This document shows positions 51,923 to 64,000 of a stretch of 64,000 bases of DNA, piece by piece. The position numbers and the translations under genes were made by a program. The notes under the pieces were generated by a model, which made no database searches, had not been told where the DNA came from, and saw nothing but the letters and a program-made list of their open reading frames with translations. Each line of letters begins with the position of its first letter. Position 1 is the stretch's first letter. The stretch covers positions 2,232,001-2,296,000 of the forward strand of contig NZ_JAFEWC010000001.1 in NCBI RefSeq assembly GCF_017355875.1, in the 5' to 3' direction. The stretch is from Aridibaculum aurantiacum (lineage in GTDB: Bacteria; Bacteroidota; Bacteroidia; Chitinophagales; Chitinophagaceae).

Positions 51923-52537
51923 CTATTTCTTTTTGAAACTACAAAACAAGAAATTCTGAACAGTATTAAAAGGGGTAGTATGGTCTTCAGTAATGCATTT
52001 AATCCTGTCAAATGCCACTTCAAATCTTGCTGACATGGATGCTTCGGAGTATTGCTTTATGTCTAACCCACTGCATTTGGTCGGACCCTGTTCAGAGAAT
52101 GTGCCAAGAACTAAGTAACCATCTTTTTTAATTGCATCTTCCGCAATGGATACATACTTGTAAATCTTTTCTTCGCTGGACAGAAAATGGAAAGCAGCAC
52201 GGTCATGCCACAAATCAAATTGTACCGGTGGTACAAAGGCTGTGATGTCAGAAACAATCCAGTGTACCTGTGAAGCTCTTGCACCTAATCGCTTCTTAGA
52301 CTTTTCAATTGCGGCAGCAGAAATATCCAATACATAAATGTTGCGATAACCCTTGTCTAATAATGCATCAACAAAGTGACTGTCGCCACCGCCAATATCA
52401 ATGATATTGGCAGATAGCGGCAAGTCATATAATTGTATAAAATCCATTGATGTTTTTGGATATGGCTGAAACCAGCTTACTTCATGTTCTGCTTTTGTTT
52501 CATATACCTTATCCCAATGGTTCTTTATATCCATCAT
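51923..52537 (-). CDS. Class I SAM-dependent methyltransferase
   Basis: A 204-residue methyltransferase with the SAM motif IIDIGGGDSHFVDALL (Gly-rich loop), the acidic residue after the second strand (VLDISAAAIE) and WIVSDITAF. The N-terminal HWDKVYETKAEHEVSWFQPYP is typical of a group of small-molecule methyltransferases annotated near thiol or chalcogen metabolism, such as thiopurine/sulfide methyltransferase-like proteins. It lies 18 bp downstream of the persulfide dioxygenase fusion and is probably co-transcribed, so methylation of sulfide or a thiol is a reasonable guess. Confidence 0.85.
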   Translation of the reverse strand: MMDIKNHWDKVYETKAEHEVSWFQPYPKTSMDFIQLYDLPLSANIIDIGGGDSHFVDALLDKGYRNIYVLDISAAAIEKSKKRLGARASQVHWIVSDITAFVPPVQFDLWHDRAAFHFLSSEEKIYKYVSIAEDAIKKDGYLVLGTFSEQGPTKCSGLDIKQYSEASMSARFEVAFDRIKCITEDHTTPFNTVQNFLFCSFKKK

Positions 52538-52555: not shown

Positions 52556-53905
52556 TTAAAACTTCTTTACTTCTTCACTCAAGTCAAACACACTAATCTT
52601 ACCATCCAGCTTTGAATGTACCAATGAGCTTGCGGCTGCACTTCTGTAACCACCTGCACAGTGTATCACCACCGGCTTATCTGTTGGTATTTCATTCACT
52701 CTTTCTCTTATCTCTGCCAACGGTATGGATATGCTGTTGCTGAATATCTTTTTCTCTTTCACTTCAGATGTGTTCCTTACGTCAACTACTGTGTAGGCAT
52801 CAAGGTTATTCCTGAACATGTTCACATCTATCTCTGCTTCTTTTACAGGACCACCATTGATAACAAATGCACCTTCAACAGCTGCTTCATACCCTATAGC
52901 TGCTGCCCTTTCTATTGCCTTTTGCAACTGCTCTTTGCTTTCGCCTGCCAGGTAAAACTTTTCTTCAGGGTTGATGATGCTACCGAGCCACGTTTCAAAT
53001 TTACCATCAATCATCAGGTTTATTGAGTGTGGCAAATGCCCTTCTTTAAAATCTGCTTCTTTCCTTATATCTACTATCCACAATGAACTTTCAAGATTGT
53101 TGAGTAACTCTTCTGATGGGTTTTCATTGACTGTTATTTTTGAAATGCTTTCCTGCAAAGGAGCTGCACCTTTCCTGTTTACTTCTACGTTGAATGGGAA
53201 ATAAGCAGGAATGAAAGGCTGGTCGGCTAACAGGTTCTGTACAAACTCTTCTTCTGTAGCTTCCTGTAAGCTCCAGTTGGTTTGCTTTTCCTGACCAATG
53301 GTGCTGCTGCTTTCTTTGCTTAAATTCTTACCACATAATGTGCCTGCTCCATGTGCCGGGTATACCAGAACATCATCTTTCAAGGTCGCCAGTTTCTCTC
53401 TCAATGAATGATACATCTGCTTTGCAAGGTCTTCTCTTTTGGATTGTAGGTTACCTGCACCTTCTCTTAAATCAGGTCTGCCGCAATCGCCAATGAAAAG
53501 TGTATCGCCGGTGAATACTGCCTTTTGCTTACCATCATGCTCTAATAAGATGCTGATACCATCAGGTGAGTGACCGGGTGCATGTATAGATGTGAGTTTT
53601 ATCTTACCCAATTCAATGGTAGCACCTTCGTCAAAATCCTGGTGCTCATAGGAAGCGCCAACAAGGCTATGCGTATAAATAGTGGCACCTGTAAGCTGCC
53701 TTAGCTCTGCATGACTACTCACAAAATCAGCATGTGGATGTGTTTCGATGATGCCAACTATGGTTGCATCGTGCTCCTTTGCATAATCCAGGTAAGGCTG
53801 TGGGTTGCGTGAAGGGTCAATCAGTATTATCTTCTTTTCGCAATCGCTCAATACTGCATAACTGAACTGTGCAAGGTTCTTATCTTCCCATTGTTTTATT
53901 TTCAT
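52556..53905 (-). CDS. Persulfide dioxygenase-rhodanese fusion (CstB-like)
   Basis: A 449-residue protein from the ATG at 53905. Residues 1-240 are an ETHE1-type metallo-beta-lactamase fold (IETHPHADFVSSH, HAPGHSPDGISILL, FTGDTLFIGDCGRPDLR, VYPAHGAGTLCG). Residues about 260-350 are a rhodanese homology domain without an active-site Cys, and 355-449 a second rhodanese with the active-site loop HCAGGYRSAAAS. This order and length match CstB, which oxidises persulfides and releases thiosulfate. A Crp/Fnr-type operator lies 51 bp upstream with a TTTG element at the right distance. Confidence 0.9.
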   Translation of the reverse strand: MKIKQWEDKNLAQFSYAVLSDCEKKIILIDPSRNPQPYLDYAKEHDATIVGIIETHPHADFVSSHAELRQLTGATIYTHSLVGASYEHQDFDEGATIELGKIKLTSIHAPGHSPDGISILLEHDGKQKAVFTGDTLFIGDCGRPDLREGAGNLQSKREDLAKQMYHSLREKLATLKDDVLVYPAHGAGTLCGKNLSKESSSTIGQEKQTNWSLQEATEEEFVQNLLADQPFIPAYFPFNVEVNRKGAAPLQESISKITVNENPSEELLNNLESSLWIVDIRKEADFKEGHLPHSINLMIDGKFETWLGSIINPEEKFYLAGESKEQLQKAIERAAAIGYEAAVEGAFVINGGPVKEAEIDVNMFRNNLDAYTVVDVRNTSEVKEKKIFSNSISIPLAEIRERVNEIPTDKPVVIHCAGGYRSAAASSLVHSKLDGKISVFDLSEEVKKF

Positions 53906-53955
53906 TGTTCTTTGATTTAATAATGCAAATTTCGATTGTCTCATTCATGTTATCA

Positions 53956-53969
53956 GTGACTGTTATCAC
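53956..53969. promoter_or_regulatory. Crp/Fnr-type operator 1 (GTGACTGTTATCAC)
   Basis: Palindrome GTGA-N6-TCAC, centred at 53962.5 and 35 bp upstream of a TTTG (53926-53929, minus strand) before the CstB-like gene. Flanked by TCA on the left and ATAA on the right. Confidence 0.7.
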
Positions 53970-53979
53970 ATAACAAATA

Positions 53980-53997
53980 AGCTGCTCGAAGGCAGCT
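53980..53997 (-). terminator. Hairpin after the ArsR gene
   Basis: AGCTGC/GCAGCT 6-bp stem with a small loop, followed on the minus strand by TTATTTG. It is 70 bp beyond the ArsR stop and resembles the TTCG hairpin at 54521. The weak T run makes termination likely but not certain. Confidence 0.5.
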
Positions 53998-54066
53998 CTT
54001 ATAACAAACAATCGTCTCACTACTGGAACTTATTTTGATTACATTAGACACGTCATCGGATAAAAG

Positions 54067-54378
54067 CTAACTCACAAGCCTATCTAAAATGTGATTTAAT
54101 TCATCCAATTTATTATAGTTTACACTGTAAAATATCGTCTTACCGTCTCTTGCAGTTGTTACCAATCCGGCTCTTCTAAGTATGGCTAAATGTTGCGATG
54201 CAACTGATTGTTCTAATTTGAGCAGTCTATATAATTCCGTCACATTAATGTTTCCATTCCGGTGCATCAAAGTAAGCATCTCTTGCCTTAAAGAGTGATT
54301 GATTGCTCTTATTACAAGGGCTCCTTTTTTGATTTGTAGTTTGTTAATTGATAGTTCTCTTTTTTCTGTGGTTTGCAT
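54067..54378 (-). CDS. ArsR-family regulator without cysteines
   Basis: A 103-residue winged helix: INHSLRQEMLTLMHR, the recognition region LEQSVASQHLAILRRAGLVTTARDGKTIFYSV. It contains no Cys at all, so it cannot sense persulfide or metal through thiols as SqrR/BigR or ArsR do; Asp, Glu or His ligands, or a partner, would be needed. It has its own promoter with a Crp/Fnr-type operator and lies between the YeeE/YedE genes and the CstB-like gene, so it probably contributes to sulfur control. Confidence 0.9.
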   Translation of the reverse strand: MQTTEKRELSINKLQIKKGALVIRAINHSLRQEMLTLMHRNGNINVTELYRLLKLEQSVASQHLAILRRAGLVTTARDGKTIFYSVNYNKLDELNHILDRLVS

Positions 54379-54397
54379 TTAGTTTTTATTTATGACA

Positions 54398-54405
54398 ACA
54401 AACGT
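54398..54405 (-). promoter_or_regulatory. -7 promoter element of the ArsR gene (TACGTTTG)
   Basis: TACGTTTG on the minus strand is a full TAnnTTTG match, 36 bp from the centre of operator 2 and 20 bp from the ArsR ATG. Confidence 0.65.
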
Positions 54406-54428
54406 AAATACAACGCTTTTTGTAGTCA

Positions 54429-54442
54429 GTGACTTTTATCAC
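54429..54442. promoter_or_regulatory. Crp/Fnr-type operator 2 (GTGACTTTTATCAC)
   Basis: Centred at 54435.5 and 51 bp before the ArsR ATG. Same flanks (TCAGTGAC..., ...TCACATTA) as operator 1. Confidence 0.72.
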
Positions 54443-54520
54443 ATTAAGGTTAAGTAGCAAATGAAAATTAGCTATACACATAAACCCGTATTGATGAATA
54501 GAAGTAATATTAAGGTTATA

Positions 54521-54546
54521 AAAAAAGCTGCCCGAAGGCAGCTCTT
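54521..54546 (-). terminator. Terminator of the YeeE/YedE genes
   Basis: Minus strand: AGCTGCC-TTCG-GGCAGCT followed by seven T. Located 20 bp after the stop at 54565. Confidence 0.9.
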
Positions 54547-54564
54547 ACAACATAACCAACCATA

Positions 54565-55116
54565 TCAATGCGGTAGCTTCTCTCTGAAATAACCATACAC
54601 CCACGTACCTGCTACTGCACTTAACAACACCACGCTTACTACTAAAAACCCTGTACCTATCTGTGCAAACAAAGGACCTGGACAAGCACCTGTCATTGCC
54701 CAGCCTAAACCAAATATCAATCCACCAATTATCTGCCCTTTGTTGAATTTCTTAGGATGAAACTTTATAGGTTCACCATGTATTGTTTTTATCTTAAACT
54801 TCTTAATCAGCCAAACTGAAATCATACCTACCACTACAGCAGTGCCGATAACACCATACATGTGAAAGCTCTGCAACCTGAACATCTCCTGTATCCTGAA
54901 CCACGAAATCACTTCTGCTTTTACAAACACGACCCCAAATACAAGACCGACTGCCAGGTATTTAAAATTGTACCACCACGGATGTTTCAGTACGGTATCG
55001 TTGATGCACATTGTATCCAATGAACGCACTTCATAATCAGTAACTGAAAAATCTTTTACAGTATCGCTACCGGTGATGGTACTTGGGGGTTGTTGTACTT
55101 TATTATTGAATGACAT
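54565..55116 (-). CDS. YeeE/YedE (TsuA-like) transporter, C-terminal half protein
   Basis: A 183-residue membrane protein with four helices. The conserved Cys-containing pore motif is MTGACPGPLFAQIGTG, preceded by QIIGGLIFGLGWA. In the thiosulfate transporter TsuA two such repeats lie in one chain; here the halves are separate genes 12 bp apart. The N-terminal ~50 residues are a soluble extension (TVKDFSVTDYEVRSLD). Uptake of thiosulfate or a related sulfur species is the likely role. Confidence 0.87.
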   Translation of the reverse strand: MSFNNKVQQPPSTITGSDTVKDFSVTDYEVRSLDTMCINDTVLKHPWWYNFKYLAVGLVFGVVFVKAEVISWFRIQEMFRLQSFHMYGVIGTAVVVGMISVWLIKKFKIKTIHGEPIKFHPKKFNKGQIIGGLIFGLGWAMTGACPGPLFAQIGTGFLVVSVVLLSAVAGTWVYGYFREKLPH

Positions 55117-55128
55117 AAAACTTCTTTA

Positions 55129-55692
55129 TTACAGATTTAGAATGAAAGGAAGCAGCAGGTTCGCCATAATGAAGCCACCTACCATAAAACTTATTGTTGC
55201 TATGAGTGAAGGAACCTGTAAGTCACTTAAACCCATTATGGCATGACCGCTGGTGCAACCACCTGCATACCGTGCTCCAAAGCCTACTAAAAAGCCACCG
55301 CCAATTAGCATGATAAAACCCCTTAGCGTGAACAGGCTTTCCCAACTGAACAACTCTGATGGCAATAGCGAAGTAGTATCATTGATACCATAACCTTTCA
55401 CTTCTTCTACCAAAGCTGGGGCTACTTCTAAACCTGCGGGGTTAGATAGGTATTGTGCAGCCAGAAAGCCACCAATAAGAATACCGGCTACAAAAAACAG
55501 GTTCCATACTTCTTTCTTCCAGTCGTACTGGAAGAACTTGATGTTAGCAGGAAAACACGCTGCACAGGCATGACGCAGATTGGCTGAAATACCAAAGTGC
55601 TTGTTTCCTAAAATTAATAATGCTGGTACTATTAAGCCAATGATAGCGCCTGCTACATACCACGACCAGGGCTGCTGTAAAAACTCTAACAT
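55129..55692 (-). CDS. YeeE/YedE (TsuA-like) transporter, N-terminal half protein
   Basis: A 187-residue membrane protein with the pore motif GARYAGGCTSGHAIMGLSDL, including the conserved Cys, and RHACAACFPANIKFF after the first helix. It forms a pair with the downstream half protein. The promoter has a Crp/Fnr-type operator 52 bp upstream of the ATG. Confidence 0.88.
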   Translation of the reverse strand: MLEFLQQPWSWYVAGAIIGLIVPALLILGNKHFGISANLRHACAACFPANIKFFQYDWKKEVWNLFFVAGILIGGFLAAQYLSNPAGLEVAPALVEEVKGYGINDTTSLLPSELFSWESLFTLRGFIMLIGGGFLVGFGARYAGGCTSGHAIMGLSDLQVPSLIATISFMVGGFIMANLLLPFILNL

Positions 55693-55743
55693 ATTTTATT
55701 GCTGATTTTGATGCAAAACTCGTGTATTGTACCTACACCTTCA

Positions 55744-55757
55744 GTGACATTAGTCAC
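55744..55757. promoter_or_regulatory. Crp/Fnr-type operator 3 (GTGACATTAGTCAC)
   Basis: A perfect palindrome in its arms (GTGAC/GTCAC), centred at 55750.5, 35 bp from a TTTG (minus strand, 55714-55717) before the YeeE/YedE genes. Confidence 0.75.
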
Positions 55758-55788
55758 ACGATGCAAATCCATTTAAATTGAATTTGTT

Positions 55789-55992
55789 CTAACGTTTATC
55801 ATCTAACGAACATTTACCACCTACACAACCAACAGGTTTGAAGAATGAAGTAATTATGAAAAGCCCGCCAAAGGCATAGGCAATCTATGCATCTTCATAC
55901 AATATGGCTACTGTTATGAAAATTGCACCAAATACCCATCGTACTAATCGATGTGCCCAAACGGGTGATATGGTGTATTTAGATTGTTTCAT
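55789..55992 (-). pseudogene. DUF2892/YgaP-like small membrane protein interrupted by an amber codon
   Basis: Reading the minus strand from an ATG at 55992 to a TAG at 55789 gives 67 codons of convincing sequence with one in-frame TAG at 55885-55887 (codon 36). Before it: MKQSKYTISPVWAHRLVRWV then VFGAIFITVAILYEDA; after it: IAYAFGGLFIITSFFKPVGC and VGGKCSLDDKR. The stop falls between two helices, where a Trp (TGG) would fit. The start overlaps the end of the DUF6132 gene by 14 bp, as expected for the last gene of the operon. Either a recent nonsense mutation or a sequencing error. Confidence 0.75.
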
Positions 55993-56209
55993 CAGGCTGT
56001 ATTGCTTTGTCTTGTTTTTGTTCTTTTTTAAATAATCCAAAAAGCAAAGCGCCCATCAATGCAAAATAGATGGTGCTGTTAACCGGGCTGGATGTAATGG
56101 AACAAGTACCGGTAAGACAACCCACATATTTCCAATACAGATACCCTGCTACGGCACCAACGATGGCACCTATCCAGTACAGCTTATTTTTTAATATCCA
56201 GTTCTTCAT
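55979..56209 (-). CDS. DUF6132 family membrane protein
   Basis: A 76-residue protein from the ATG at 56209, with two helices and the typical core IGAIVGAVAGYLYWKYVGCLTG, CSITSSPVNSTIYFALMGALLFGLF. The Cys pair (GCLTGTCSIT) is characteristic. Overlaps the upstream gene by 26 bp. Function unknown; in Bacteroidota it is common in rhodanese and sulfur gene clusters. Confidence 0.83.
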   Translation of the reverse strand: MKNWILKNKLYWIGAIVGAVAGYLYWKYVGCLTGTCSITSSPVNSTIYFALMGALLFGLFKKEQKQDKAIQPDETI

Positions 56210-56423
56210 ATTCAATTGTTGTTTTTGTATTGGATGAACGTATGTCAACTGCGCAACCGGCAGTACCACAACAACCAACATTTGCCAGTGCAAGACCACC
56301 TAAAGCCAACCCTAATACTATCGTGAGGGTATCTTTTGTGTAAATGCCTTGCACTATAATGCCAATAGCTAAGACCATTCTTAGTATCCGCATAAAGTTC
56401 CACTGTTGCCATATTGCTTTCAT
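56184..56423 (-). CDS. DUF2892/YgaP-type inner-membrane protein
   Basis: A 79-residue protein with two hydrophobic helices (MRILRMVLAIGIIVQGIY and TIVLGLALGGLALANVGCC) and a Cys-rich end of the second helix (VGCCGTAGC). YgaP of E. coli fuses such a membrane part to a rhodanese domain; here the rhodanese is the separate gene 2 bp upstream. The tail (SSNTKTTIEYEELDIKK) is hydrophilic. Confidence 0.83.
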   Translation of the reverse strand: MKAIWQQWNFMRILRMVLAIGIIVQGIYTKDTLTIVLGLALGGLALANVGCCGTAGCAVDIRSSNTKTTIEYEELDIKK

Positions 56424-56425
56424 AA

Positions 56426-56734
56426 CTATTTAATTTGTTTTTTTAGGTTACTCCATGCACCACCATTATACACTTCAATGTTAGCGGCAGCTAATATTGA
56501 TTTTGCCATGCCGCTCCTGTTGCCGCTGCGGCAAACTGTAATGATAGGTGCATTCAGGCTTTGCAGCCGTTTGATTTCCTGCCGGATGCTGTCAAGCGGA
56601 ATGTTTTTAGAACCGGATATATGACCAGCCTTATATTCTGACGGGGTTCTTACATCTACTATTACAGCACCATTCTTTACCAGTTGTGCCATGTCTGTCT
56701 TGCTCTTAAACAGAGACTTTATAAAATCTAACAT
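56426..56734 (-). CDS. Small rhodanese-domain protein
   Basis: A 102-residue single rhodanese domain with active-site loop CRSGNRSG and the CDC25-like VDVRTPSEYKAGHISGSKNIPLD. It should carry a persulfide on the Cys and pass sulfur to an acceptor. No signal peptide, so cytoplasmic, in contrast to the exported paralogue upstream. Confidence 0.92.
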   Translation of the reverse strand: MLDFIKSLFKSKTDMAQLVKNGAVIVDVRTPSEYKAGHISGSKNIPLDSIRQEIKRLQSLNAPIITVCRSGNRSGMAKSILAAANIEVYNGGAWSNLKKQIK

Positions 56735-56737
56735 CTG

Positions 56738-57103
56738 CTACTTTTTTAATGTTTGGGCTACTTCATCTAAACCGCCGGCATTCACAGCTTCTGTAATGCC
56801 ATGTTGTTTCAATATGGCAACAGCCATCCCGCTTCTGTTACCACTACGGCAGTATGCAACAACTGGTTTCGGCATTTTCTTAAATTCTTCTACCCTTGCT
56901 GCCACTTCATCTAAAGGAATATTCACTGCATTTGGATAATGTCCGGCAGCATATTCTTCAGGTGTTCTTACGTCAACTATCGTTGCGTTTTTATATGTGT
57001 CTTTCATAACTACTTTTTTATTGATGGAGCAAAATTGAAAAGAAACAAGGAGCAGTATGGTGACAAAAGTTACATACCGGTGTTTGTTAATGAATGTTAG
57101 CAT
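56738..57103 (-). CDS. Exported rhodanese-domain protein
   Basis: A 121-residue protein with an N-terminal hydrophobic segment (YVTFVTILLLVSFQFC) that resembles a lipoprotein signal, then a rhodanese domain with VDVRTPEEYAAGHYPNAVNIPLD and active-site loop CRSGNRSG. It is therefore likely periplasmic or membrane-attached. Its ATG overlaps the upstream DUF2490 stop in TAATG. Confidence 0.9.
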   Translation of the reverse strand: MLTFINKHRYVTFVTILLLVSFQFCSINKKVVMKDTYKNATIVDVRTPEEYAAGHYPNAVNIPLDEVAARVEEFKKMPKPVVAYCRSGNRSGMAVAILKQHGITEAVNAGGLDEVAQTLKK

Positions 57104-57795
57104 TATATATTGATGGTTAAATAGATTAAGAATTGATTTCGTACCTGTAAACCTTTTTGAATGCTTAGCTGGTAGCCTGCATTCAGTTCATGGTGTTTGT
57201 TCTTTAGCCGAATGCCATTGTACAGCCGGTTTTGGTCAAAGCCGGATGAACCGTTTAATGTTCGGAAGAGCACTTCGTTTGAGACCTGGTAGCTTGTTAC
57301 AGTACCTGTACCCTTTTTTACCAGTGGCAGTACAAAACTGTTTTGCAACCTGTATCTATGCCTTACAGATGGAGCTGATACGTTAGCCCCTGTGACTGTA
57401 ATTTCATAAAGCACCCGATGTGTAGTAGCAGCATTTCCTATTCTCCAATTCTTAGCAATGCCTGCCATACTTCTTACATCATCAACCTTTGTAGCTGTTT
57501 CTGCATTTATTGAGAAACTATGATTTTGAAAATATGCAACAGGTGACACAATGATAGTGGTGCTGCTATCAGGTTTGTAATGTAGCCACAACCTATAACT
57601 GTTAAGCAATTGTTCACTACACAATGCCTTACCTTCTCCTGTACCATTACTGCGGCGGTGCTGGTAGTCAAAGGCAAAGAGCAGATGTTTACTGATGGTT
57701 TTATTTACCTGCAATCTTGTCCAAAGTTCATTGTCAGCTTGTGCTAATACAGCATGAGATACCAATAGGAGTATAAAGAAAAGTAGTGGCTTCAT
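57103..57795 (-). CDS. DUF2490 family outer-membrane beta-barrel protein
   Basis: A 230-residue protein from the ATG at 57795 with a signal peptide (MKPLLFFILLLVSHAVLA); an in-frame ATG at 57810 overlaps the TauE stop. DUF2490 marks: ELWTRLQVNKTISKHLLFAFDYQHRR, RLWLHYKP, RHRYRLQNSFVLPL and a final LIYLTINI strand. Function unknown; an outer-membrane pore for sulfur compounds would fit the operon (inference). Confidence 0.82.
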   Translation of the reverse strand: MKPLLFFILLLVSHAVLAQADNELWTRLQVNKTISKHLLFAFDYQHRRSNGTGEGKALCSEQLLNSYRLWLHYKPDSSTTIIVSPVAYFQNHSFSINAETATKVDDVRSMAGIAKNWRIGNAATTHRVLYEITVTGANVSAPSVRHRYRLQNSFVLPLVKKGTGTVTSYQVSNEVLFRTLNGSSGFDQNRLYNGIRLKNKHHELNAGYQLSIQKGLQVRNQFLIYLTINI

Positions 57796-57802
57796 TGTTT
57801 GA

Positions 57803-58606
57803 TTAACCATTACTTAGTTCACGAATAATGATGTAAATGCCCATGAGCAATATGAACCAGCCAAAGCCTTTCTTCAACTTATCTGAAGCAATCTTGTTAT
57901 TGAGCCATCCACCAATGAAGATGCCGACAATAGAAATGGCAGTTATGATGAGAAGCATTTGCCAGTTGATAGTATAATTGGCTACATCTCCTGTAAATCC
58001 AATTAATGACTTAGCGGCAATAATCAGCAATGAAGTGCCCACTGCCTGCTTCATGGGTAGCTTACTAAACAACACCAAAGCAGGAATGATAAGGAAGCCA
58101 CCACCTGCACCTACCAATCCTGTAAGCACGCCGACAACTGCGCCTTCAATCAAGATTAACGGGTAGTTGAATTGTTGGATGGCAGGTTCTTCTGCTTGTT
58201 TGACGGTCTTATTTCTAATCATGGAAATAGATGCAAACACCATCAGCACTGCAAACAGTACCATCAATGCAATGCTTTTTGTAAGCTCAAAACCATCGAT
58301 GGTTATCAGCACATCGGGTATAGCCGGAACAAGGAATTTGCGGGTAAGAAATACGGCAACAATGGATGGTATACCAAAAACAATTGCTGTTTTGATATTG
58401 ACCAGCCCTTGCCTGTGCTTTGGCAATACACCTACTAAACTTGCACTTCCTACAATGAACAGAGAATAGGCTGTAGCTAAAACAGGCTGAATGCCGAACA
58501 AATAAACCAACACCGGCACGGTGAGTACAGAACCGCCACCACCTATCAAGCCTAATGAAATTCCTATCAGCAACGCTGCTATGTAACCAATGACTTCTAT
58601 TAACAT
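57803..58606 (-). CDS. TauE/SafE-type sulfite (anion) exporter
   Basis: A 267-residue inner-membrane protein with about eight helices and both internal-repeat motifs: GGGGSVLTVPVLVYL near the N-terminus and GAGGGFLIIPALVL in the middle. Members move sulfite, sulfonates or related anions out of the cell. As first gene of the operon with rhodaneses, it is probably the sulfite/thiosulfate exit route. Operator 4 lies 35 bp upstream of the ATG. Confidence 0.9.
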   Translation of the reverse strand: MLIEVIGYIAALLIGISLGLIGGGGSVLTVPVLVYLFGIQPVLATAYSLFIVGSASLVGVLPKHRQGLVNIKTAIVFGIPSIVAVFLTRKFLVPAIPDVLITIDGFELTKSIALMVLFAVLMVFASISMIRNKTVKQAEEPAIQQFNYPLILIEGAVVGVLTGLVGAGGGFLIIPALVLFSKLPMKQAVGTSLLIIAAKSLIGFTGDVANYTINWQMLLIITAISIVGIFIGGWLNNKIASDKLKKGFGWFILLMGIYIIIRELSNG

Positions 58607-58640
58607 GCAGCAAAATTGAACTCAAAGGTTCTGGAGTACA

Positions 58641-58654
58641 GTGATAATAGTCAC
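58641..58654. promoter_or_regulatory. Crp/Fnr-type operator 4 (GTGATAATAGTCAC)
   Basis: Centred at 58647.5, 35 bp from a TTTG (minus strand, 58611-58614) before the TauE/SafE gene, and 11 bp from the 3' end of the Crp/Fnr gene. Confidence 0.7.
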
Positions 58655-58664
58655 ACAGGAGCAA

Positions 58665-59294
58665 TTACTTTTTAATCCACTCAATAGCGTTGCGGTGAAT
58701 GATTAGCCAGCCTTTTGCTTCCATCTTTTTCAGTAAGCGGCTGACGACTTCCCTGGAAGAGTTCAGGTCATTGGCAATGTCCTGGTGGGTCATCTTGAGT
58801 GTGGAGCCTAACGTTTCTGACTGCTTCTGAAGATAGTTTTCCAGCCTTTCATCCATGTTGGTAAAGGCAATGGCATCAATGGTTCTGAGCAGTTCTTCAA
58901 AGCGACTGCGGTATTGGGTAATAACAAACTGATACCAGCTTTTGTATTTGCTCATCCACCTGTCCATGTATTCAAACGGAATACTTAATACAGTGGCATC
59001 AGTTAATGCTTTTGCCAGTACTTCACTGCTTTCGTATTTGGCTGCACATACCATTGACAGCGAGCAAGCCTGCCCTGCATTCAGGTGGTAAATGAAAAAC
59101 TCCTTGCCTTCTTCATCTTCACGGTATAGCTTAACAATACCGTCCAATATGAGCATGGTAGAACGAATGGTTTGCCCTACACGCAGCATGGTATCACCTG
59201 CCTTCACTTCTTTGATAGAAGTATGTTGCTGTATTTCGTTGTACAGTTCATCTTCCAGACCGGGAAAGAGTTTCTTTATGTGGTTGATGTCCAT
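58665..59294 (-). CDS. Crp/Fnr-family transcription regulator
   Basis: A 209-residue protein from the ATG at 59294 (an extension to 59336 is in frame). The N-terminal half is a cyclic-nucleotide-binding-like barrel (VKAGDTMLRVGQTIRSTMLILDGIVKLYREDEEGKEFFIYHL), with one Cys pair region (NAGQACSLSMVCAAK) but no Fnr-type Cys cluster. The C-terminal winged helix has MTHQDIANDLNSSREVVSRLLKKMEAKG with the recognition helix SREVVSRLLKK, like the Bacteroidota regulators of the Crp/Fnr family. It is the natural candidate to bind the four operators downstream. Confidence 0.9.
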   Translation of the reverse strand: MDINHIKKLFPGLEDELYNEIQQHTSIKEVKAGDTMLRVGQTIRSTMLILDGIVKLYREDEEGKEFFIYHLNAGQACSLSMVCAAKYESSEVLAKALTDATVLSIPFEYMDRWMSKYKSWYQFVITQYRSRFEELLRTIDAIAFTNMDERLENYLQKQSETLGSTLKMTHQDIANDLNSSREVVSRLLKKMEAKGWLIIHRNAIEWIKK

Positions 59295-59408: not shown

Positions 59409-60278
59409 TTATACTTCTAAAAATTGACTTGCATTAGTCCTTTCTATGTCTTCAGCAACTACATCAGATTGCTCGGCATAAAGGAGTGTGACGGCAGGAT
59501 TGTTTTTGATATTCTCCCAAGTACGATGTTCTCTTGAATTAATGTCTGAAGGTTCGTCACCAATGATATAGAATTTATCACTTCCTTTTCTGTTTTGATA
59601 CATTAGTCCAAGTGTAGTAATAAGACCTAAATAATGGCTTAGTTCTTTATCAATCGTCTCGTTCTTTTTGTTGAATGGTATGACTTTCGCACCTACAAAA
59701 GCACCGTTCTTTCCTAAACATTCTATATTGAAATTGAAATAGAGACCAGGTAGTTTTTCAGGTGTTAATTCCAGATTTGTATGCACTTTATTCTGAACTC
59801 TCTTAATCAATTTCTTTTCAACAGTAGCCTTGAACTTTGTTTCCTTTGTGTCAACTTCAGGCTTTTCTTTCTGGAATGTTTTATCAATCAACAACTGAAA
59901 CAGCTTTACAAACTTCTCTTCTGTTATTGTATCATTTAAAAAGGCTGGTTCTGTAAATCTTACAATGCCATTTGAATAGGTGCTTAAATGGTTGAACCTA
60001 TCTGAAGTGAGCAATTGTGTAATGCCAAACAAGCTGTTTTGTTCGCTTCTAAGGGCTTCATTTGCTTCGTTAACTTTTTGCTGAATTTGCTTTACTGTAA
60101 AGTCAACAATGTCATTTTTACTCCCTAAAAGCTGCTTAGCAACTGATTTCTTCTCGTTTGAAAAATGCAGCCAAAAACGGTTACCATCACGCAATAACAA
60201 CCCTATTGACAAGCTATCGCCTGCAATGGAGTTTGGTGCTATTTTGATTATGGTATAAAAGGTTTCCATTATTTCCAC
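59409..60278 (-). CDS. DUF3037-like protein, third gene of the methyltransferase-kinase operon
   Basis: A 289-residue protein. The N-terminus (FYTIIKIAPNSIAGDSLSIGLLL) matches the start of DUF3037 proteins, which are commonly encoded next to HipA-like kinases. A long helical middle (SVAKQLLGSKNDIVDFTVKQIQQ and onward) follows; the C-terminal third has ITTLGLMYQNR and FYIIGDEPSDINSREHR. Its start overlaps the kinase stop by 10 bp, so the two are translationally coupled. Family function unknown; I cannot see catalytic motifs. Confidence 0.7.
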   Translation of the reverse strand: MEIMETFYTIIKIAPNSIAGDSLSIGLLLRDGNRFWLHFSNEKKSVAKQLLGSKNDIVDFTVKQIQQKVNEANEALRSEQNSLFGITQLLTSDRFNHLSTYSNGIVRFTEPAFLNDTITEEKFVKLFQLLIDKTFQKEKPEVDTKETKFKATVEKKLIKRVQNKVHTNLELTPEKLPGLYFNFNIECLGKNGAFVGAKVIPFNKKNETIDKELSHYLGLITTLGLMYQNRKGSDKFYIIGDEPSDINSREHRTWENIKNNPAVTLLYAEQSDVVAEDIERTNASQFLEV

Positions 60279-61090
60279 ATTCTTACATACTCATTATAGA
60301 CGGTTTCGTTCCTTTTTTCGTCAAATAAGTAGTTGTATAATACCGTTATTGTTTCGTCAAAAAAACCCCATTCCGGGGGTATTAGCTGTACAATGTCGCT
60401 AAAGTGGCGCTGACATTTTTCAATGCAAAGGTAGAAGTTTTCCTGTTCCTTTCTGCACCACTCCTTGTCTAATTTCAAAAAGCGTCGTAACTGCTTGAAA
60501 AACAATGACTGAAGCATATACTGGTCTTCTGTAGCCCAAAACGTTCTATCAGCCAAAGTATTGTATGCGCCTGTGCGAAAAGCCATTGCATGGTCAATGG
60601 CAAGGAAATGGTATCGTTCATCTTCTTCATACAGCATCAGGTTCTTCAGGTCTGGCGGTCTGTCTTCGTTTTCTACCCATAAATCAAATAGACCAATGTG
60701 TGCAAACATTTCAGGTCTGTAGTAATTCCGAAAATCCACCTTGCCTTTTACCTGTAGAAACTCTGTAAAGTCAAAAGCTCCTTCTTGTTCCTTTGAGCCA
60801 AAAGCAGGGCGGCTGTAAAAAGCTGGTTTGTGCCGTGCTCCGTAGTCCTGCCTTATCGTTTCTTCTTCCAGGTTTATCAGGCATATATCAGGGGTATTGA
60901 TGTTCCATAATCGCAAAAAGTAATGACAAAGCACTTCATTGATTATAGAAATGGCAGGGCTGTTCTGCCGGTCGTTCTTCACATAATAACTCTCGTAATC
61001 ATCACAAATCAGGTGCAAAGGCTCACTACCTATAGTGTCTAATTTCCTTTGTATTGAAATTACTCTACGATATGGAAGTGGCTCAATCAA
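60269..61090 (-). CDS. HipA-like kinase-domain protein
   Basis: A 273-residue protein with the compact HipA-type kinase core. The ATP-site region is in YESYYVKNDRQNS and IINEVLCHYFLRLWNI; the catalytic segment is FDLWVENEDRPPDLKNLML (Asp, Asn) and the metal-binding segment FLAIDHAMAF (DHxxAF). It lacks the extra N-terminal region of true HipA toxins and has no HipB antitoxin beside it. Its start overlaps the methyltransferase stop by 8 bp. Kinases of this class phosphorylate proteins or possibly other substrates; target unknown. Confidence 0.78.
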   Translation of the reverse strand: MIEPLPYRRVISIQRKLDTIGSEPLHLICDDYESYYVKNDRQNSPAISIINEVLCHYFLRLWNINTPDICLINLEEETIRQDYGARHKPAFYSRPAFGSKEQEGAFDFTEFLQVKGKVDFRNYYRPEMFAHIGLFDLWVENEDRPPDLKNLMLYEEDERYHFLAIDHAMAFRTGAYNTLADRTFWATEDQYMLQSLFFKQLRRFLKLDKEWCRKEQENFYLCIEKCQRHFSDIVQLIPPEWGFFDETITVLYNYLFDEKRNETVYNEYVRMWK

Positions 61091-64000
61091 TTGCTTCGGT
61101 TACTGCTTTTGGTGCTTCCTTTTTTGTTGCGCCTTCTACGATGGCTATTTCTTCAGGGGTAAGGTTGTAGAGTTGATAAACGAGTTGGTCAATTTGTATT
61201 TCCAAATCCGTAGTATCTGCTTTTGGATTACTACTTTTTAACAACAAGATTTCTTCCACCAGCTGCGCAATTTCTGAACAGGTTGTAAATTTCTTTGCAA
61301 TAGGCATTTCCTTAATATCATTTGGATTGAGTTTCGGAAATATTTCTTTACCAAAATTTGAGAAAGAGTTGACAGCATACCACGAAATAAGTTTGGAATT
61401 TACAATACCAAGCAGTATTCTTAATTGCTGCATATCATCAAAATGGGGTTTGAATGGCGATATACTATGACCATAGTAATAAACTTCATCAACAATGCTT
61501 GCTTGGATAGCCCTGTTCTTCCCTGGGACTTCCCGAAATAAAATTCTGTTTCCTTCAAAGAACTTAGGCAACCTAGGAGCAGCTAACCAATCACCATAAC
61601 TTAACCATTTGTCATTCCATGTAACAGAGTACCGATTTAAGTTTTTTCCTTCTAACCACTTTCCGCAGCTTTCATCTTTTTTAAAGTCAAAATGATATGC
61701 TCTTGATTTTATTATTTCTTGACTTTGCCCACGATAGCTGTCGTATGGAGTAATTCCTTGAATAACATCGCCAAACTTTGACAAGGGTTCAGAAACTTTC
61801 TTAATCTTTTTTATTAGGTTATTGGTAGCTGTACTTGAGCGATATTCAATGACATACGTCTTAGCTGGTATCCACTCATCTTTACTAACGACGAAATCCA
61901 TTTGACCGTTAATAATTTGAATAAGATGATGTTTCTTCCTTTTTCTTACCTGGAATGAACATGTATTTACAACAGCTTCGTCAAATACATTTTCGCCGTG
62001 TATCATAACTCTTGCTAAGTCATAATCATTTGCTACTATTTTTCTGATTTTGACACAATTTTCAAGTGTTAGCCATAGTATTGGTGTTATCAATTCAATA
62101 ACGCCATTCTCCTTACAAATGTTGATTGAAAGTTCAACAAAGTATAAGTAAGCGTCAAACTTGTATTGGTATGACTTATAGTGTTCAGTAATGTACTTTT
62201 TTTCAAAGGTGTTTAAACTTGTTCCATAAGGTGGATTGCCAATAATCACATCAAATCCAATGAAATCACCTTCATCATTCAGCACTTCAGGAAATTCAAA
62301 CCGCCATTCAAATGCATTGTTGTAAATGGGGCTTTTCACATAGGCTTCCAAATCCTTATTCAGCTTTTCTATATCAGCTTCCAGTCTTTGCTTGTCTTTC
62401 TTTTGTGCTGCGGTTAGGTTTTGCTCAAACAACTTGTTGTTAACATACTTGTTCAGAAACTCATTGGTTATTTTATTCAGCTTTTTCTTTACCGGGTTCT
62501 GGTCGGTGATTTTAGAAAGAAATCCTTTCTTCAAATCGGTCATCAACTGCTGTATGCCACGCTTCTTATCCTTGTCAGCTTCATGCTTATAATCAGATAC
62601 CCACTTTTTGTATTCCAGTATCTTCTTTTCAAAGTAAGGTGTGGCGGCTTTCAGGTCTTCATCCAGCCCAAACCTGCTAACTAAAGAATTACCTGTCTTA
62701 ATGTTTATATCAATGTTTGGCAGGGTTTGCAACTCACCATTGCTGTTGCTGCCATCGGCAATGTAGTAGGCATTCTTCAGCAGTTCTATCCATAAGCGTA
62801 AACGGCATATCTGTACGGATTTTGGGTTGATGTCCACACCAAATAAGCTGTTTTCTATCAGGCTTTGCTTTTCGTGAAAAAGCGTTTCCTGCACCCTTTG
62901 TATTTCAGCATTGGGTATGGTTATATTATCACCTGCATCCTGCACATAGTACGTAAAGAAGTTGCGCTCCTTATCTGTTACAAGCAGTTCATCATTTTCT
63001 ACCGTTGCAATGTGGTCGGTTAATCGTTTGCCAGCCGCATCAGCCAAAATGCCTAACTCACTTTTAATGGCTATGAGTTCATTCAATGCAGAAACCAAAA
63101 AGTGACCGGAACCAACTGCCGGGTCGCAAATGGTGAGCGAATTAATCAGTGCATTGTATTCTTTGATGGCTTTGGCGGAACGGTCGTCTGAAATATAGTT
63201 GTGCAGGTCTTCAAAGCTGTCTGCCTTCCAGTTGTACTTTTCCTTAAACTTATTTACCACTGCCTGCCTGATAGCCTGCCGGCACATATACATGGTGATG
63301 AAGCCAGGTGTAAAGATGGAGCCGTCTTTGTAGCCGTTTATCTTTTCAAAGATGAGCCCCAGCACCGATGCATTGATAAGTGTCTTCCGCTCTTCCTGTA
63401 TCTCTTCGCTGCCTTCGCTGGCAAAGTCGTAGGCATTCAGGAAATCAAACAGGTATTGTAGTGTGTTGAGCTTTTGTGTTACCGGCTTGTTTTTATCATC
63501 CTTCAGCACTGTGTTAGCCAGTAATGGCATTTCTGCTGCATCATCCAGCATGTTAATGCGGATGGTCTGGTCTTCCAGTGGCGTTATATCAAACAAAGAA
63601 CTATTCAGGTAAGGAATGTGCTTGTATTTGGCTCTTACACGTTCTATACGTTCCTGTTGCTTACGTGCCAGTACCTGGAAGAAGAGTTTGTACAATTCAT
63701 CGTACTGTGGTAAGGTCTTGTAGTTCAGGAAACGGTAATTTTCGTTGCCTTTGTGGTATTTGAGTAACTGCGCTTCCAATAACTTCAGGAACAGCACACG
63801 GTTCACCCATGTAATACACAACTCGAGGGCTACACTGAAAAGCTGGTCTTCTGTGGTCTCTCCATACGACTGCCGGTCTGATACCTTGTGCAGGCAGTTT
63901 TCTGTTTCCAGTTGTACAATGGTGTTTTCCAGCAATGAGCCATCAAGGCGTTTGCCTTCCTGCCTGCGGCGAATGAGCTTCTTGTTTCCTTCCTTTACTT
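61083..64000 (-). CDS. N6-adenine DNA methyltransferase, type IIG/IIL restriction-modification-like (5' partial)
   Basis: The frame is open to the right edge; 971 residues are visible, of which those before TTG 63935 continue without a start (VKEGNKKLIRRRQEGKRLDGS). SAM motif I is DPAVGSGHFLVSAL (visible residue ~292), preceded by the FTPGFITMYMCRQAI motif X, and the catalytic motif IV is NPPYG (~588). Downstream is a TaqI/Eco57I-type specificity region (WLEGKNLNRYSVTWNDKWLSYG, PKFFEGNRILFREV). The nuclease domain expected at the N-terminus would lie outside the window. PglX of BREX is a similar class but no other brx genes are seen. It leads an overlapping operon with a kinase and a DUF3037-like gene. 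Confidence 0.87.
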   Translation of the reverse strand, partial: VKEGNKKLIRRRQEGKRLDGSLLENTIVQLETENCLHKVSDRQSYGETTEDQLFSVALELCITWVNRVLFLKLLEAQLLKYHKGNENYRFLNYKTLPQYDELYKLFFQVLARKQQERIERVRAKYKHIPYLNSSLFDITPLEDQTIRINMLDDAAEMPLLANTVLKDDKNKPVTQKLNTLQYLFDFLNAYDFASEGSEEIQEERKTLINASVLGLIFEKINGYKDGSIFTPGFITMYMCRQAIRQAVVNKFKEKYNWKADSFEDLHNYISDDRSAKAIKEYNALINSLTICDPAVGSGHFLVSALNELIAIKSELGILADAAGKRLTDHIATVENDELLVTDKERNFFTYYVQDAGDNITIPNAEIQRVQETLFHEKQSLIENSLFGVDINPKSVQICRLRLWIELLKNAYYIADGSNSNGELQTLPNIDINIKTGNSLVSRFGLDEDLKAATPYFEKKILEYKKWVSDYKHEADKDKKRGIQQLMTDLKKGFLSKITDQNPVKKKLNKITNEFLNKYVNNKLFEQNLTAAQKKDKQRLEADIEKLNKDLEAYVKSPIYNNAFEWRFEFPEVLNDEGDFIGFDVIIGNPPYGTSLNTFEKKYITEHYKSYQYKFDAYLYFVELSINICKENGVIELITPILWLTLENCVKIRKIVANDYDLARVMIHGENVFDEAVVNTCSFQVRKRKKHHLIQIINGQMDFVVSKDEWIPAKTYVIEYRSSTATNNLIKKIKKVSEPLSKFGDVIQGITPYDSYRGQSQEIIKSRAYHFDFKKDESCGKWLEGKNLNRYSVTWNDKWLSYGDWLAAPRLPKFFEGNRILFREVPGKNRAIQASIVDEVYYYGHSISPFKPHFDDMQQLRILLGIVNSKLISWYAVNSFSNFGKEIFPKLNPNDIKEMPIAKKFTTCSEIAQLVEEILLLKSSNPKADTTDLEIQIDQLVYQLYNLTPEEIAIVEGATKKEAPKAVTEAID

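Follow-up and report, generated by a model that had tools for sequence, protein, structure and literature searches.

Crp/Fnr-type operators at a constant distance from the -7 element mark a putative sulfur regulon in Aridibaculum aurantiacum and its relatives

The stretch of DNA analysed here (the window, 64,000 nucleotides of the Aridibaculum aurantiacum genome) carries a sulfur block of 12 minus-strand genes at 51.9-59.3 kb, which includes tauE, yeeE, arsR, rhodanese and metallo-beta-lactamase (MBL)-rhodanese genes as well as crp, the gene of a Crp/Fnr-family regulator. Five palindromic operators in this block all lie at one and the same distance from a -7 element. These palindromes are quite probably the sites of the protein encoded at 58665-59294: its dimer would sit centred at -41.5, overlapping a weak -33 region, and would serve as class II activator at promoters of the sigma-A type (TAnnTTTG). 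The sites, their exact spacing, their conservation over many genera and the covariation of the operator with residue 182 of the regulator can all be read from the DNA itself.

Operators and their distance from the -7 element

The regulator, the operators and the associated -7 elements are as follows.

58665..59294, minus strand: Crp/Fnr-family regulator, 209 amino acids (Pfam cNMP_binding, HTH_Crp_2 and Crp above cut-off)
58641..58654, minus strand: operator 4 (TGTGACTATTATCAC), ahead of tauE, centre 35.0 bp from TTTG
58611..58614, minus strand: TTTG of the -7 element, tauE promoter
57060..57073, minus strand: operator 5 (TGTAACTTTTGTCAC), within the extended rhodanese frame, one mismatch, 35.0 bp from TTTG
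57030..57033, minus strand: TTTG of the -7 element ahead of the short rhodanese start (ATG 57007)
55744..55757, minus strand: operator 3 (TGTGACTAATGTCAC), ahead of the YeeE/YedE pair, 35.0 bp from TTTG
55714..55717, minus strand: TTTG of the -7 element, yeeE promoter
54429..54442, minus strand: operator 2 (TGTGATAAAAGTCAC), ahead of arsR, 35.0 bp from TTTG
54399..54402, minus strand: TTTG of the -7 element, arsR promoter
53956..53969, minus strand: operator 1 (TGTGATAACAGTCAC), ahead of the MBL-rhodanese gene, 35.0 bp from TTTG
53926..53929, minus strand: TTTG of the -7 element, MBL-rhodanese promoter

The pattern GTGAY-N4-RTCAC was found exactly at 53956, 54429, 55744 and 58641 (minus strand), just where a preliminary description of this DNA had placed four operators. 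They had been called identical; all follow one consensus, yet no two have the same sequence. A fifth operator, with one mismatch, lies at 57060-57073 and had been missed, and five more one-mismatch sites occur elsewhere in the window. The distance from palindrome centre to TTTG centre was 35.0 bp in all five operators, so that of the distances given earlier (35, 36, 35 and 35 bp) only the 36 at 54429 had to be corrected. As had also been claimed, every block promoter that could be delimited bears a site: judged from the gene gaps, one stands at each of the presumed promoters ahead of tauE, the short rhodanese, yeeE, arsR and the MBL gene.

According to the available text of PMC9723704, 5'-end mapping in Flavobacterium psychrophilum locates the TAnnTTTG -7 box at -12 to -5. 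With the start site transferred from F. psychrophilum, TTTG is centred at -6.5 and the palindrome, 35.0 bp away in 5/5 cases, exactly at -41.5. This is the class II activator position, to which the spacing had been described as close. Among 144 distinct composite sites (operator plus -7 element; window and relatives), A was present at -11 in 90%, a base that was unforced by the search pattern, and positions -34 to -31, in the -33 region that the operator overlaps, were weakly conserved. Such a profile, with A at -11 and a weak -33 region, would be expected of a promoter that has a genuine -7 box and depends on an activator. The ATG of tauE (58606) falls on the predicted +1, and its mRNA is therefore predicted to be leaderless; the same geometry (offset 4) was seen at 6/26 tauE sites, the one in the window included.

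In the whole genome (4,856,584 bases) the composite TGTRAYN4RTCAC-N26-TTTG had five exact matches, all in the sulfur block, which speaks against a motif equally frequent and unlinked elsewhere, the refutation that had been envisaged. With up to one mismatch there were 10 matches (5 outside the block, scattered) as compared to 4 for the reversed pattern. The bare palindrome occurred at 11 places, 4 of them in the block, as compared to 14 for its reversed pattern; thus, the palindrome alone is not enriched genome-wide, but is clustered and phased in the block. A scan at up to 3 mismatches was dominated by noise (173 and 200 matches versus 271 and 226 for the reversed patterns) and was dropped. 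The earlier idea of a local sulfur regulon under Crp/Fnr-type operators therefore appears right in substance and was, if anything, understated, given five sites and a uniform 35 bp. "Local" holds for exact sites in this genome; in relatives, sites also occur outside the crp loci.

Conservation in relatives and covariation with residue 182

Of the 147 genomes drawn from the family, 110 had a Crp homologue (E<=1e-20); the single other genome drawn from the same genus had none. We examined 83 loci, namely 80 fetched out of 135 crp-like places (those that scored higher, except for a few second copies, plus some selected weaker places) and three named ones (L072-L074). L074, from Pontibacter, was counted with the family loci, and L075, with 33% identity over a portion of the query, entered none of the counts. 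These loci contained 96 strict palindromes versus 6 for the reversed pattern, or 89 versus 4 near crp. TTTG followed at distance 35 in 58 cases, and at every other distance in at most 4. With the degenerate pattern GTRAYN4RTYAC in 104 loci, a gap of 26 was obtained 131 times and eight other gaps 1 to 6 times each. A tauE, MBL, yeeE or rhodanese homologue lay within 6.5 kb of crp in 70/83 loci (51 excluding rhodanese).

Outside the family, the signal emerged only when one mismatch was allowed. Among 25 short loci (two of them from the family) only 3 strict palindromes were found, one with TTTG at 35. At up to one mismatch, 20 loci from other families of the class gave 45 palindromes, with 36 at distance 35 and 5 at the next most frequent, although 18/20 loci come from one genus and many of the 36 sites look orthologous in sister species and are not independent. 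Presence of the composite site also went with that of a close ortholog: it was found in 46/58 genomes with a best crp match of E<=5.6e-53 and in 22/89 others. This cut was picked after the data had been seen; alternative cuts gave 47/61 versus 21/86 (44% identity) and 44/56 versus 24/91 (E<=2.2e-60). The 58 close-ortholog genomes held 109 composite sites and the 89 others 28, the reversed controls being 10 and 12, respectively.

The best evidence that the regulator would bind these sites is an operator base that covaries, across relatives, with residue 182 of its recognition helix. This residue was Glu in 69, Val in 14 and Ala in one of 84 Crp proteins. Operators with GTGA (GG) or GTAA (AA) in both half-sites occupy the same promoter position. 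At gap 26, Glu-type loci had 66 GG, 17 mixed and 0 AA operators, and Val-type loci 0 GG, 1 mixed and 12 AA operators. When any perfect 5-4-5 inverted repeat ahead of A-N2-TTTG was counted, GTGA accounted for 21/26 in 68 Glu loci and GTAA for 11/14 in 13 Val loci. A recent switch is seen between two sister groups, L144/L147 (Val, AA) and L145/L148/L150 (Glu, GG). Perfect Val-type sites are rare: GTAAC composites with a full TAnnTTTG were found across the phylum in 9/395 genomes as compared to 3 for the reversed control, and add little.

Val-type sites precede much the same kinds of genes. Eleven of 13 stand ahead of sulfur-, thiol- or efflux-type families shared with the Glu type, or of peroxiredoxin-like genes: by BLAST, MBL-rhodanese (2), tauE (1), small membrane protein (2), efflux (1) and SQR-like (1), the rest being relatives of a YgaP-like membrane protein (2), peroxiredoxin-like by eye (2) and without assignment (2). 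In one genome (G028, loci L115 and L157) the two types coexist: a Glu182 Crp whose locus has two operators of the GTGA type, and a Val182 Crp whose locus has one of the GTAA type and a mixed one.

The regulator, its presumed targets and its possible signal

The regulator belongs to the Crp/Fnr superfamily, with PF00027, PF13545 and PF00325 all above cut-off. Its recognition helix, SSREVVSR, contains R181, E182 and R186, and this RExxxR arrangement is the pattern of the CRP recognition helix. It falls short of the NCBIfam model of cAMP-CRP (60.6 bits versus a cut-off of 266) and of that of FNR (42.5 versus 228); C77 and C83 are its only cysteines, which leaves no FNR-type four-cysteine cluster. 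By eye, the segment that holds these two cysteines aligns with the CRP phosphate-binding cassette. R181, R186 and C77 were conserved in 84/84 Crp proteins and C83 in 77/84, Val-type relatives included. A search of its own genome with the regulator gave one match at E<=1e-3; the helices of other homologues read, for example, TESLIR, VETVIR or PESLSR. An AlphaFold2 model from a 4-row alignment (window, L072-L074) was too poor to be used (mean pLDDT 65.8, pTM 0.41).

Targets were sought at 145 composite sites, of which 66 lie in crp loci (L072-L074 contributing 10) and 79 elsewhere in family genomes; 137 sites had been found in the drawn genomes, and two (G037:C48, G137:C399) were unfetched. Downstream genes were assigned by mechanical choice of an open reading frame (ORF), which gave an ORF at 132/145 sites, 117 with an offset of at most 60 nt. 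By BLAST to the window proteins, sites stood ahead of tauE (26), MBL-rhodanese (19), yeeE (9) and rhodanese-domain (15) genes, 69/145 in all, and also ahead of crp homologues (4), arsR (2) and the small membrane protein (2). The remaining 68, 13 of them without an ORF, had no match to window proteins. Pfam was run on ten downstream proteins, nine from these 68 and one matched through its rhodanese domain. It revealed an outer membrane efflux protein, a thioredoxin, two OsmC proteins, a YgaP-like membrane domain and pyridine nucleotide-disulfide oxidoreductases, of which one was fused to rhodanese and one had a weak, sub-cut-off sulfide dehydrogenase match; one protein had no family. The names SQR-like, thioredoxin reductase-like and peroxiredoxin-like were given by eye. 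Efflux-type (11) and thioredoxin-type (7) proteins formed recurring clusters. The 11 outer membrane efflux-type proteins in relatives (one scanned by Pfam) often have GTGATATATGTCAC as operator, and may form a branch of the regulon. Their operators are listed by locus, with position where available.

L126:12157, L139:14507, L140:9329, L198, L218, L219, L230, L232, L234, L241, L243: operators ahead of efflux-type genes

Binding by the regulator, activation rather than repression, and its dimeric state are what we infer from the above. More tentatively, reactive sulfur would switch the activator: Cys77, alone or together with Cys83, would react with persulfide, polysulfide or sulfide in the equivalent of the cAMP pocket of CRP, and genes for sulfide oxidation, sulfite export and sulfane-sulfur transport would be turned on together. 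This appears the most economical signal because the targets make, move and remove sulfane sulfur. In its widest form the proposal is that a Crp/Fnr clade from several presumed Bacteroidota families is an undescribed reactive-sulfur sensor acting through pocket Cys77 and class II activation, with two DNA dialects (Glu182/GTGA and Val182/GTAA); we regard this as possible, though slightly doubtful. Such dialects can keep paralogous regulons apart in one cell, as for example in G028.

Binding and activation may be right and the signal another, namely oxygen limitation, NO, the thiol redox state or some other small ligand, an alternative which we consider rather doubtful yet worth serious attention. 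In its favour, Crp/Fnr proteins respond for the most part to redox state, gases or nucleotides, and some composite sites stand ahead of genes for outer membrane efflux, OsmC, thioredoxin and (by eye) peroxiredoxin-type proteins. The assigned targets, however, are mainly sulfide and sulfane-sulfur functions, and the protein has two cysteines, no FNR-type cluster and scores far below the CRP and FNR cut-offs. It is unlikely that the Crp protein binds its sites as a repressor and is freed by reactive sulfur, like BigR, SqrR and CstR. A repressor needs no single exact spacing, and here 35 bp is kept over more than 100 sites, at the position of class II activators and beside a -33 region as poorly conserved as at activator-dependent promoters; what speaks for repression is the overlap of the operator with that region and the description, in the available parts of the literature, of BigR and sHdrR/SoxR, which control genes of this kind, as repressors. 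That another Crp/Fnr-family protein of the same genome or the ArsR of the block reads the palindromes is very improbable, for although the genome has 11 cNMP_binding matches (10 besides the regulator) and 7 HTH_Crp_2 matches, and arsR lies within the block, the nine of those ten that were tested have neither RExxxR nor CxxxxxC, the tenth shows no such helix in its C-terminal tail, arsR follows the composite site in 2/145 cases only with operators persisting where arsR is missing, and the operator base tracks residue 182 of the linked Crp.

Several points weigh against activation of the block by a sulfur-responsive Crp. The evidence comes from sequence, and the inducer is guessed from gene content. 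The window crp gene has no upstream site at 0 or 1 mismatch, 13/83 loci lack nearby homologues of tauE, MBL, yeeE or rhodanese, and no gap-26 site was found in 17/69 Glu-type loci, 5/14 Val-type loci and the single Ala-type locus. Conversely, 22 genomes lacking a close ortholog have composite sites (28 in total, versus 12 reversed). On the best tree the Glu/Val switch takes only 4 changes, 2 of them forced by well-supported branches, which are too few independent events for a sign test to become significant. Nor does residue 182 make up the entire code, since Glu-type proteins of other families (20/20) go with mixed GTGA/GTAA half-sites (34/35). Cys83 is missing in 5/69 Glu-type proteins, three of which (L139, L140, L141) have sites all the same; a two-cysteine switch is therefore not general.

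Genes of the sulfur block and comparison with known systems

Besides the regulator, the block contains the following genes.

57803..58606, minus strand: TauE/SafE-family sulfite exporter-like protein (PF01925, E=2.1e-45)
57103..57810, minus strand: DUF2490 protein (PF10677), presumed tauE operon member, overlapping the end of tauE
56738..57007, minus strand: rhodanese A, short form (PF00581); an in-frame extension reaches 57103
56426..56734, minus strand: rhodanese B (PF00581)
56184..56423, minus strand: small membrane protein A of the rhodanese operon (ORF, 2 bp gap; membrane nature by eye)
55979..56209, minus strand: small membrane protein B (by eye; ORF, shorter start chosen)
55129..55692, minus strand: YeeE/YedE half-transporter A, 187 amino acids (PF04143)
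54565..55116, minus strand: YeeE/YedE half-transporter B, 183 amino acids (PF04143, PF20398; also DUF6691)
54067..54378, minus strand: ArsR-family regulator (NF033788 above cut-off)
52556..53905, minus strand: MBL-fold protein with two rhodanese stretches (PF00753, PF00581)
51923..52537, minus strand: methyltransferase-like protein (by eye), presumed MBL operon member, 18 bp 3' of the MBL gene

An MBL domain followed by two rhodanese domains is the layout of CstB, and the domains of the MBL-rhodanese protein suggest a CstB-like persulfide dioxygenase. Its closest solved chains, both matching over nearly the full length, carry the names beta-lactamase and rhodanese domain protein (3tp9) and metallo-beta-lactamase family protein (3r2u, 466 amino acids). 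Homologues of the methyltransferase-like protein follow mbl in L072 and yeeB in L123. The YeeE/YedE proteins, of 187 and 183 amino acids as compared to the 330-position NCBIfam model of the thiosulfate transporter TsuA, scored 38.8 and 28.2 bits against its cut-off of 400. ArsR (54067-54378) has zero cysteines and reached 44.5 bits against a cut-off of 155 with the BigR model, and thus does not fall in the BigR/SqrR group; this cysteine-free arsR stands under its own Crp-type operator, and a similar arsR with a site occurs in L217. No Pfam match was found for small membrane protein A (56184..56423), but both small membrane proteins have homologues in the loci of relatives. Judged by eye, the extension of rhodanese A (56738-57103) resembles a membrane or lipoprotein signal (FVTILLLVSFQFC), and operator 5 lies inside it. 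Upstream and internal promoters might yield exported and cytoplasmic forms of one enzyme. A HipA-like protein and a 950-amino-acid DNA methylase-like protein (by eye) adjoin the block at 59409-63935; given these neighbours, and the lack of crp in the one further genome drawn from the genus, the block may be in or near a genomic island.

A search of the open-licence literature, part of which matched Crp/Fnr weakly, returned no Crp/Fnr-type sulfur regulon of Bacteroidota, although most crp loci examined carry sulfur genes. The putative regulon is legible from the DNA to the point of clean predictions, namely start sites, operator bases and one cysteine. A Glu/Val change that occurs in nature together with the matching operator change offers a case for the evolution of transcription factor specificity under a fixed promoter architecture, and the invariant -41.5 a handle on how an activator contacts the unusual sigma factor of the phylum.

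The MBL-rhodanese protein shares with CstB and the Blh persulfide dioxygenase-rhodanese fusions the order of MBL and two rhodanese stretches, but scored only 55.9 bits with the NCBIfam Blh model (cut-off 625). BigR, SqrR, CstR and FisR belong to the ArsR, CsoR or sigma-54 families, and several are repressors. Their target kinds are the same as here (persulfide dioxygenase, rhodanese, YeeE/YedE, TauE), whereas the present regulator is a putative activator of the Crp/Fnr family.

The mutants E181V, E181K and E181L of CAP, reportedly described by Ebright in 1984, are altered-specificity mutants said to prefer a different base at the corresponding operator position. In the available text of PMC3265434, a C-to-A change in the CRP site affects the contact with Glu181. 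In the CAP mutants as in the present regulators, loss of the recognition-helix Glu pairs with G to A at the matching operator base; here, in contrast, the change is natural, lies between related regulators, and leaves the promoter position of the sulfur genes intact. A further known system is the Crp of Acinetobacter baumannii, likewise a Crp family protein tied to sulfide stress: as far as the available text of PMC7315123 goes, it is about 50% identical to E. coli Crp, has a Cys opposite the ligand pocket and is persulfidated in sulfide-exposed cells, while no sulfur regulon for it was found there.

Class II activation by E. coli CRP/CAP, also among the closest known systems, involves an RExxxR helix and a TGTGA-N6-TCACA operator centred at -41.5. 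The CRP-type Pfam domains, the helix, the operator type and the -41.5 centre are all found here, but the -7 box is TAnnTTTG, the CRP model gives 60.6 bits where 266 are needed, a CxxxxxC (aligned by eye) occupies the region of the cAMP pocket, and the regulon is a local sulfur one. It looks like an ordinary machine, a class II Crp/Fnr activator, in a seemingly undescribed use.

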